47,123 nucleotides of DNA, taken from contig NZ_QMKQ01000028.1 in assembly GCF_003287975.1 (NCBI RefSeq), positions 1 to 47,123 on the forward strand. The letters run 5' to 3'. Below, piece by piece: positions 1 through 1,708 of the stretch. The notes under the pieces are model-generated. The model worked only from the letters and a program-made list of their open reading frames with translations, did no database searches and was not told the origin of the DNA. Position 1 is the first letter of the stretch. Each line of letters begins with the position of its first letter. The DNA comes from Arthrobacter sp. AQ5-05 (GTDB lineage Bacteria; Actinomycetota; Actinomycetes; Actinomycetales; Micrococcaceae). The position numbers and the translations under genes were made by a program.

Positions 1-1
1 G

Positions 2-55
2 GAATCGGTCCCGTTCATCGGCAGCGATCTCAAAGCACCCATGTTGCCATCTTAA
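2..55 (+). CDS. possible 3' end of an IS-encoded gene (partial)
   Basis: An open frame enters from the window edge and ends ESVPFIGSDLKAPMLPS at a TAA that overlaps the first of three IS-type repeats. In IS21-family elements the second gene (istB) ends close to the terminal repeats, so this could be such a C-terminus. The 17 residues alone identify no family, and the neighbouring frame starting at base 1 is also open, so the reading frame is a guess. Confidence 0.22.
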   Translation, partial: ESVPFIGSDLKAPMLPS

Positions 56-122
56 CTGAGACAAACCATGAAATCCGTATCTTGCCAAGTATATTGAGAT
101 TTTTGCCAACAATACTGAGACA
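44..122. mobile_element. terminal repeats of an IS21-like insertion sequence (left)
   Basis: Three 19-bp direct repeats lie at 44-62, 82-100 and 103-121. Each begins TTGCCA and ends TGAGAC or TGAGAT (for example TTGCCAACAATACTGAGAC). The last is followed by A, so the block closes with CA at 121-122, as expected for the TG...CA termini of IS21-family elements, which carry multiple internal repeats at their ends. The body of the element would lie to the left of the window. No transposase is visible, so the family is inferred from repeat architecture only. Confidence 0.5.
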
Positions 123-164
123 GGACAGACACGGGTGCTTGCTGGGGAGTGTCCTCGAACTGCA

Positions 165-192
165 ACTTGACATAATGTAGATTATCGGCGCA
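165..192 (-). other. dif: dif-like XerC/XerD recombination site
   Basis: On the minus strand these 28 bases divide into an 11-bp XerC-type arm TGCGCCGATAA, a 6-bp centre TCTACA and an 11-bp XerD-type arm TTATGTCAAGT. The E. coli dif arms are GGTGCGCATAA and TTATGTTAAAT, so the XerD arm matches at 9 of 11 and the XerC arm at 7 of 11, with the same 11-6-11 spacing. The inner ATAA/TTAT pair gives the usual partial dyad. Dif is where XerC/XerD resolve chromosome dimers at the replication terminus under FtsK control. The site lies 42 bp from the IS end. It could instead be a dif-mimicking attachment site of an integrative element, but no phage or plasmid genes are visible. Confidence 0.72.
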
Positions 193-526
193 ATGCCCAG
201 GGTTTTGAAAGTGGTGAAATCCGCACATTCCAGCACATCCAGACGTCTGCCTCGATCGTGTCCAACTCCCCCGAAAATCCCGCTTTTCTCGTTTTCGGCG
301 GCGGTTCGTCGGCAACTGCCCGTGGGCCCTCACCGAGCGCGCCCACGGATTTCGGTGCCCGCCAGCGCCTGGAATCGGCCGCAAGTGGAAAATCCCGAAG
401 TATCTCTGCGAAATCCGCGTGTTTCTGCCGCTCCTCCGCGTCACTGGCAGGGATAACTGTTGGTTGACATAACTACTTTTCGGCCTGTTTTGGCGCTTGC
501 ATAGTTATTCAGGGAAACTCGATGGT
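193..526. other. gene-free leader between dif-like site and zapE
   Basis: No convincing coding frame is seen here on either strand. The end nearest zapE has a TTGACA at 464-469 (possible -35, but no good -10 at standard spacing) and a short inverted repeat, ATAACTA at 469-475 with TAGTTAT at 502-508, just upstream of the zapE start. These may form the zapE promoter/operator region, but the support is weak. Confidence 0.4.
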
Positions 527-1708
527 ATGCCACATCAATATTCAGACGTCCATGCAGGTGCACATGCCGGCACCGCGCGAGGAATCCAGGACCTCATTCT
601 CGAGCGTGCCATGGGCGAGGGCTTGGACCTGGATCCGCAGCAACGCGGCACGATCGGTTTGCTGGCACGAAACGCGCAGCGACACCTGTCCCGACAGCAC
701 CAATCCCCCTCCGGTGACCACGTTTATCTTTGGGGGCCTCCCGGCCGGGGAAAAACCTGGACGCTGGGTGCCTTCTTCGATGCCCTTCCAACCAGCAACA
801 AGCGGCGATTCCACTTCCACGAATTCTTCAGGGAGCTGCATGCCACCGCGCACAAGGCCACGGCGACAGCATTGGCCCAGATCGAGGAGCCAGGGGCGCT
901 TGGCAATGGCCGGGGACGCATGGACCGGGTGGCGGCACGCACCAGCGCCATTGAGCAATCCATCGAGTCGATCCTGGGCAACGTCGAGGTTCTTTGCTTC
1001 GACGAATTCCACTGCAACGACCCAGGCGACGCGATGCTCTTGGCGCGGATGTTCAAATTCGTCATGGGCCGACGGATTCTGTTGGTCACCACCTCGAACT
1101 ATCCGCCCGAGCAACTTCTGGCCGACGAGTACTACCACCACCTGATCTTGCCGACCATTGACGAAATCCGCGAGCACATGGATGTCCACGAGCTCGATGC
1201 CCACCGGGACTACCGCAGCATCGATGTCGCCGATGCCCAGCGCCACGGCTACAATTCCGGCAGCATCCTGGTTGACCCGGCCGCCGCTGAATTGCACCGG
1301 ATTGGACTCAGCGCGCCGGCGCAGCACGAGGCGGCCAACCTCAAGCCCACCAGCCATGACATCCGTGCACTCCGGGCGGTTTCGGGGCAACTTTGGTTCG
1401 AATTTGGTGATCTTTGCGAAGCGTTGACCTCGACGCTGGACTACCTGGAACTGGCCAAGGAATTCAATCACTGGGTTATTTCCGGCGTACCAGGTGCTGC
1501 CGGCATGAGCCCGTTTGGGCTGCGCCGCCTCGCCAACGCCATCGACGTCCTGTACGACCGCGACATCCGCCTGGACCTGCTGGCCCAGGGCGACTTCTCG
1601 GAGTCGCTGAGCCACCTGCCGGAGCTGGACGCTGCACGCCTGGCCAGCCGGCTGAACGCCTTGCAAACCGCCGCCACACTACCAGCCACCCAAGGTGCCA
1701 ACGCATGA
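527..1708 (+). CDS. zapE: AFG1/ZapE-family cell division ATPase
   Basis: This 393-residue P-loop ATPase of the AFG1/ZapE family has a Walker A motif GPPGRGKT near residues 70-77, the family segment FHEFFRELHATAHK near 97-110, and a Walker B/family motif LCFDEFHCND near 156-165. E. coli ZapE associates with the Z-ring; yeast Afg1 helps membrane protein quality control. The role in Actinobacteria is not established. I place the start at ATG 527, with AGGGA about ten bases upstream, rather than at an in-frame TTG at 497 that has no ribosome site. The stop overlaps the start of the next gene (ATGA), so the deformylase is translationally coupled. Confidence 0.85.
   Translation: MPHQYSDVHAGAHAGTARGIQDLILERAMGEGLDLDPQQRGTIGLLARNAQRHLSRQHQSPSGDHVYLWGPPGRGKTWTLGAFFDALPTSNKRRFHFHEFFRELHATAHKATATALAQIEEPGALGNGRGRMDRVAARTSAIEQSIESILGNVEVLCFDEFHCNDPGDAMLLARMFKFVMGRRILLVTTSNYPPEQLLADEYYHHLILPTIDEIREHMDVHELDAHRDYRSIDVADAQRHGYNSGSILVDPAAAELHRIGLSAPAQHEAANLKPTSHDIRALRAVSGQLWFEFGDLCEALTSTLDYLELAKEFNHWVISGVPGAAGMSPFGLRRLANAIDVLYDRDIRLDLLAQGDFSESLSHLPELDAARLASRLNALQTAATLPATQGANA

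Follow-up and report, generated by a model that had tools for sequence, protein, structure and literature searches.

Tn7 inserts with its right end facing its attachment site, glmS, leaves that site intact and generates a 5-bp target duplication. Tn5053 is a TniQ-bearing transposon that senses resolvase on res, and the Tn5053/Tn402 family, which has a TniR resolvase and res and no TnsA, is said to have been described by Minakhina in 1999 as res-site hunters. Insertion sequences (IS) of the IS1202 family of Acinetobacter have been published as 'dif site hunters' (PMC10132070). Tn6022 combines a short TniQ (369 aa) with a tyrosine-recombinase-like protein, TnsF, as its target selector (PMC10293859), and PMC8649781 presents an Actinobacteria-dominated Tn7-like clade without an experimentally characterised member. 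Here we describe a locus of Arthrobacter sp. AQ5-05 where dif adjoins an apparently Tn7-like element. The window, that is, the whole stretch analysed, consists of the 47,123 nucleotides of contig NZ_QMKQ01000028.1 (C28).

Results

The initial annotation proposed an 11-6-11 dif-like site at positions 165-192 of the window, and the site proved to be real. It reads on the minus strand, where 192-165 is TGCGCCGATAA-TCTACA-TTATGTCAAGT, with the XerC arm at 192-182, the central region at 181-176 and the XerD arm at 175-165. When the arms were re-counted against the E. coli dif sequence, the scores first given, 7/11 for XerC and 9/11 for XerD, were reproduced. A closer standard was the actinobacterial dif, as the 28 bp matched the Frankia alni dif given in PMC3025954 at 24/28 positions (9/11 in the XerC arm and 11/11 in the XerD arm). 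With up to three mismatches, the core pattern CCGATAATNNACATTATGTCAAGT was found once in the window and in none of 100 shuffles. A search of the whole 4.65-Mb draft genome (116 contigs) with the same tolerance returned this single match and no second copy. Among related genomes, dif was recovered in 15/15 members of the genus (≤2 mismatches) and in 287/295 genomes of the family (≤3 mismatches), some of which carry a second dif-like site that is usually weaker. One recombinase of the genome scored as a XerD above the family cut-off (349 bits against 329.6), and another related to it, which scored 261 bits, was assigned as XerC. Judged by its sequence, the 28-mer is a genuine dif; candidate xerC and xerD genes are present in the genome, and XerC/XerD recombination at the site is predicted.

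The site had also been proposed to mark the terminus of the chromosome, and this was supported in relatives. In 18 chosen genomes that have dif and dnaA on one contig, the two were separated by 0.40-0.494 of the contig (mean 0.472), and dif lies nearly opposite dnaA, near the replication terminus, in these 18. The GC-skew check that had been suggested agreed in one relative and not in the other: the skew peak of G005 was at the 2.88-Mb sample, near dif at 2.94 Mb, whereas that of G010 was at 1.47 Mb, 0.67 Mb away from dif at 2.14 Mb. With 20 samples of 20 kb per genome, the skew of these two relatives was too noisy, so the dif-dnaA separation was used instead. The window encodes two Pup-ligase-family proteins, a proteasome subunit and a proteasomal ATPase. 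The first gene beside dif, on its XerC side, encodes an AFG1/ZapE-like ATPase (497-1708, plus strand; PF03969, E 2.7e-71; start codon unsettled); the ZapE of E. coli functions in division.

The neighbour of dif had been taken for an IS end 42 bp away, and this description had to be replaced. The window opens with what appears to be the right, tnsA-proximal end of a Tn7-like transposon (1-127, minus strand); the element ends at base 127 and is separated from dif by a 37-bp spacer (128-164). Positions 1-127 are identical to the final 127 bases of contig C58 (4,952 bp). This overlap looks like the word length of the assembler, so C28 was taken as continuing C58, and the basis of the join is the 127-bp assembly overlap together with the target duplication, not reads. 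The window contig thus ends inside the transposon, whose tnsA, on C58, would be transcribed in the direction leading away from dif. C58 has four genes, all reading inward; in order from the dif-side end they specify proteins of 263 aa (TnsA-like), 680 aa (Mu/TnsB-type transposase), 295 aa (TniB/TnsC-type ATPase) and 280 aa (TniQ-like). The Mu-transposase C-terminal domain and TniB exceeded the Pfam cut-offs, and the TnsA-like protein scored below its cut-off (22.6 vs 26.5 bits) at the position expected for it. The ends of C58 are TGTCC...GGACA with repeated inner motifs. In the window, the terminal inverted repeat ending ...GGACA (103-127, minus strand) is the same as the other end of C58 at 24/25 bases, and three repeats of family D1, which are putative TnsB sites, lie on the minus strand at 44-61 (inner), 82-99 (middle) and 103-120 (terminal). 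The target duplication GACAC occupies 128-132, and the same five bases adjoin the left end on contig C38. With TnsA, TnsB and TnsC in order, TGT..ACA ends, TnsB-type repeats and a 5-bp duplication, C58 can be classed as a probable Tn7-like transposon. An IS21-type end was another candidate for the neighbour and was rejected once the C58 sequence had been read.

The genome contains three copies of the element. Because GACAC abuts the right end on C28 and the left end on C38, these two contigs were taken as the flanks of one insertion. The second copy has CAGGA next to each of its ends (C22 and C2), and no common duplication was found for the third (presumed flanks C37 and C50), which leaves a 5-bp duplication common to both flanks in two of three copies. 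The 9-mer TTATCGGCG of the dif XerC arm lies 54, 53 and 54 bases outside the right ends in C28, C22 and C37, and of its four occurrences on both strands of 102,964 bp of the genome, three are these junctions. In the C22 and C37 targets the XerC arm is retained, with another arm in place of the dif XerD arm. Beyond the left end on C38 lies a decayed second element, with tnsA and tnsB fragments 33-44% identical to those of the first and a right end that by eye resembles that of locus L062. When the first element and one GACAC are removed, this right end is 48 bp from dif; the decayed element would have been at that distance before the first one inserted, and dif has therefore been hit by two separate insertions.

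Variant sites with the dif XerC arm, a similar centre and another second arm are present at C22:66765, C37:34056 and C25:52966, and are perhaps Xer-type attachment sites of islands; those on C22 and C37 are near genes that by eye resemble type I and type III restriction genes. Two sets of three tandem tyrosine recombinases each were observed at C43:3373-6079 and C61:551-3317, which we take to resemble recombinase-in-trio elements.

Across Actinobacteria, 33 junctions were compiled, 11 of them from the window's genus; they were chosen because both features were visible and are not a sample. The right end faced dif in these junctions across a gap of 34-69 bp (mean 44.6, sd 7.2), on the XerD side in 29 and on the XerC side in 4. 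Automatic end-calling gave no duplication-backed pair for most loci of the window's clade, so the right ends were assigned by eye, and those of L181 and L192 begin with TGC, not TGT. As read from the sequences, the arrangement is a right end towards the site, 34-69 bp off and mostly on the XerD side, with dif intact and 5-bp duplications. Many members of the genus carry related elements at dif. The right-end motif was found 37-49 bp past dif in 10/15 main dif loci of the genus (one, L072, is a remnant) and at 43 bp from one second dif-like site; at dif it was absent by eye in L058, L061, L064 and L068, and L065 had only a degenerate trace. In Nesterenkonia LB17 (L154), right-end motifs were present on both sides of dif, 35 and 40 bp off. 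Occupancy outside the genus looked low, with 2 right-end motifs and 1 tnsA at 30 family dif loci drawn, as the first genera listed, from the 287 site-bearing genomes.

Further searches started from the transposon. An end-caller blind to dif returned 20 elements with an ITR of ≥14/22 and a perfect 5-bp duplication, and dif (counted at ≤4 arm mismatches) was no further than 110 bp from the right end in 6/20 and from the left end in 0/20; this set dropped duplication-bearing pairs with an ITR <14/22 (L176, L181, L243 and L247), and chance pairings may account for some of the 20. TnsA matches were obtained in 41/295 family genomes. Among the 29 non-self loci fetched from 55 match rows, dif was ≤1.5 kb from tnsA in 14 and not in the other 15, and the ten best loci by E-value were all among the 14. 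A TnsB-profile search of genome contigs gave 127 named loci, and the best 80, which were used, span Arthrobacter, Pseudarthrobacter, Kocuria, Nesterenkonia, Mycolicibacterium, Nocardioides, Streptomyces and others. In 28 of the 78 loci with upstream sequence among these best 80, dif (≤3 arm mismatches) was ≤2.6 kb upstream of tnsB, with 4 more at 4 mismatches, and 0/63 control stretches had a dif-like site at ≤4 arm mismatches. At several TnsB loci, dif was not adjacent but 300-800 bp beyond the element end.

A TnsB tree of 88 leaves, without support values and with manually assigned labels for 4 dif and 6 outgroup leaves, contained 23 dif, 8 far, 44 other and 13 cut leaves. The window's clade was almost wholly dif-adjacent, the exceptions being L187 (none) and L172 (degenerate, 5 mismatches). 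Within the tree, L191 and L192 are labelled far and other by their distance from tnsA, yet their right-end motifs are 37 and 34 bp from dif sites with 4 and 2 mismatches, respectively. A second clade was largely dif-adjacent except for L215 and L248, L222 stood alone, and the large remainder of the tree, including Streptomyces, was not dif-adjacent. Plasmid records with a TnsB relative numbered 176, and the two in which it exceeded 60% identity were looked at. The conjugative plasmid pJ349-116 carries an element with a 74%-identical TnsB whose right end is 36 bp from a dif-like site with one arm mismatch, and neither a left end nor a duplication could be found for this copy; plasmid pHiyo8-1 (L187, of the window's clade) had no dif nearby.

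The placement of the transposon beside dif is not chance. An ordinary dif with an unrelated IS next to it by accident would be a natural view of the single window, and it is refuted by the entire targeting evidence and by the rarity of the right-end motif TGTCNNNTCYC, which occurs at 0.019/kb per strand in 40 sampled 20-kb stretches of two relatives. The presence of related elements at dif in so many members of the genus could also reflect one ancient insertion that was inherited or carried along, the spacing then being a mark of descent. We regard this as very unlikely, because the target duplications differ (GACAC, TCCAC, ACTGC, ATGAT, GCGCC, ACGGC and CGGAT), the gaps vary, and the elements fall into two clades, occupy both sides of dif and are nested in one genome. 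TnsE-type targeting by Tn7 favours replicating or terminating DNA, and a general preference for the terminus, where dif is located, might likewise draw elements near it. The spacing of 34-69 bp and the orientation are set at the level of bases, which largely refutes such a preference; moreover, the C22, C37 and pJ349-116 copies also adjoin Xer-type half-sites or sites, and inspection of the 4,952-bp element by eye revealed no tnsE-like gene. The chance of this being the explanation is accordingly slight.

The fourth protein was short. In the 10 dif-sited elements first read it had 280-299 aa in seven and 220 aa in one, and an intact one was not found in L062 and L158, whereas in 8 distant non-dif relatives it had 546-659 aa and was about twice as long. 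Among the named loci, its length, taken from first-start ORFs of which some are broken, was 133-416 aa in the dif-adjacent group (20 loci) and 143-471 aa in the group labelled other or cut (49 loci). The protein is thus short family-wide, and its length separates the whole family from the distant relatives, not dif users from non-users. The protein of C58 itself had no Pfam match and no DNA-binding Pfam domain. It has an N-terminal stretch in common with the long relatives (HHalign 80%, E 1.4e-5, 40 residues), a CxxC...CxxH pattern is common to the short protein and the long relatives, and one of its relatives had a weak Pfam match. We call the protein TniQ-like on the basis of gene order, the weak match of the relative, the Cys/His positions and the 40-residue HHalign alignment. 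The best of five AlphaFold models had a pLDDT of 79 (the others 57-64), and the model had no PDB match below E 0.6.

Other palindromes were seen outside right ends. In a Mycolicibacterium-type sub-clade (L194, L197, L198, L203, L207, L210 and L212), GTCACWGTGAC was located beyond the right end (as judged by eye), at a distance of 41-94 bp, in 7/7 loci, whether or not dif was near, and it is possibly the sub-clade's own target site. In 5/20 elements (L220, L236, L238, L239 and L240), inverted repeats of 10-11/11 with a 6-bp spacer were 33-61 bp from the right end, while the best on the left sides of all 20 elements was 8; these repeats are perhaps operators, hairpins or recombinase sites. At dif itself, a similar downstream flank around ACTATTTGCARAAYGTGCAG follows the second dif-like sites of L070 and L073 and the main dif of L061 and L066, is absent in L060 and is hardly present in L058, which suggests Xer-using integrative elements at dif. 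Element-free dif sites (L030, L031, L034, L037, L039 and L041) have a GCATCYGATGC palindrome about 15 bp past the XerD arm.

Discussion

The locus is probably best explained as a chromosomal dif next to a Tn7-like transposon from a family with two or more clades that take dif, and in some cases dif-like XerCD sites elsewhere, as their attachment site. In the mechanism that we propose, the short TniQ-like protein would recognise host XerC/XerD bound at dif and would then load TnsC, after which TnsA and TnsB would carry out cut-and-paste joining of the ends some four helical turns from dif. As a conserved, single and non-coding marker of the terminus, dif would be a safe homing site, and Xer-type plasmid sites would offer a route to new hosts. 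The shortness of the fourth protein suggests reliance on a protein that is already bound, which at dif would be XerC/XerD; the proposal is modelled on Tn5053 and its sensing of resolvase on res. In the sister clades, palindrome-binding proteins may play the part of XerC/XerD.

A competing view is that the TniQ-like or another transposon protein recognises dif DNA without XerC/XerD, much as TnsD of Tn7 reads glmS. The fixed spacing and the conserved sequence fit this equally well, and family members whose fourth proteins are just as short have other palindromes in comparable positions. On the other hand, the protein is about half the length of the TnsD-like proteins in the 8 distant relatives and has no DNA-binding Pfam domain that we could find, and two targets in the same genome have the XerC arm without the XerD arm, an observation that is compatible with either view. 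We think direct reading of dif rather improbable.

Recognition of bound XerC/XerD can be placed in a wider setting. The other palindromes at similar places in the sister sub-clades indicate that dif is one of several targets of a wider family. A somewhat improbable extension is that a large actinobacterial lineage swapped long sequence-reading selectors for a short TniQ-like protein able to dock on host proteins bound to DNA; its partners would be tyrosine recombinases in the dif clades, both at dif and at the Xer sites of plasmids, and other dimeric proteins at the palindromes of the sister clades. The family-wide shortness of the protein and the palindromes beside several non-dif members fit this extension, and if it is true, transposition would be guided by a host protein complex, not by DNA or RNA sequence.

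If dif is indeed the attachment site, the marker of the terminus serves transposons across several actinobacterial orders, and the element would be a natural example of Tn7-type machinery possibly directed by a recombinase complex of the host. Mobile ends beside dif would then be expected and not assembly noise, and the compact 5-kb element makes target sensing by res and dif 'hunters', a long-standing question, testable.

The dif of the window is an ordinary member of its class. Like the actinobacterial dif/XerCD sites of PMC3025954, from which no difference was seen, it is a 28-bp 11-6-11 site, present in a single copy and near the terminus in relatives. The element beside it has its nearest precedent in the IS1202 family, with which, as portrayed in PMC10132070, it shares several features: IS1202 elements insert at a set distance and in a set direction next to dif and the pdif sites of plasmids, they have TGT...ACA ends and a 5-bp duplication, and their transposase has been modelled on TnsB. 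IS1202 differs in being 1.5 kb long with one gene and in inserting 5 bp from the XerC arm (PMC10132070), whereas the Arthrobacter element is 4,952 bp long with four genes in the order TnsA-TnsB-TnsC-TniQ-like, and its family is 34-69 bp off and mostly on the XerD side. C58 has neither the 1.5-kb length nor the single transposase gene that define the IS1202 family. With Tn5053/Tn402 the likeness is that of an element with a TniQ or TniQ-like protein at a resolution site occupied by a recombinase, as dif would be. The recombinase and site are a serine resolvase and res there and tyrosine XerCD and dif here, and C58 stands outside that family with its TnsA-like gene and with no resolvase recognised by eye among its ORFs of ≥120 aa. 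The proposed selector would resemble that of Tn6022 in pairing a short TniQ-like protein with a tyrosine recombinase. In Tn6022, TnsF is encoded by the transposon and targets comM according to the main text of PMC10293859, where the word 'dif' is absent; the 4,952-bp element has no such gene. Gene order, a right end that faces the attachment site, a 5-bp duplication and an intact site are all as in Tn7, from which the element differs in having dif, not glmS, as its attachment site and no selector of TnsD length. No description of a TnsABC-TniQ element at dif was found in the open-access papers that were searched. Since the 'dif site hunters' of the IS1202 family have been published, dif was already known as a transposon target, and what is new, as far as these open-access papers show, is a TnsABC-TniQ-type system at dif.
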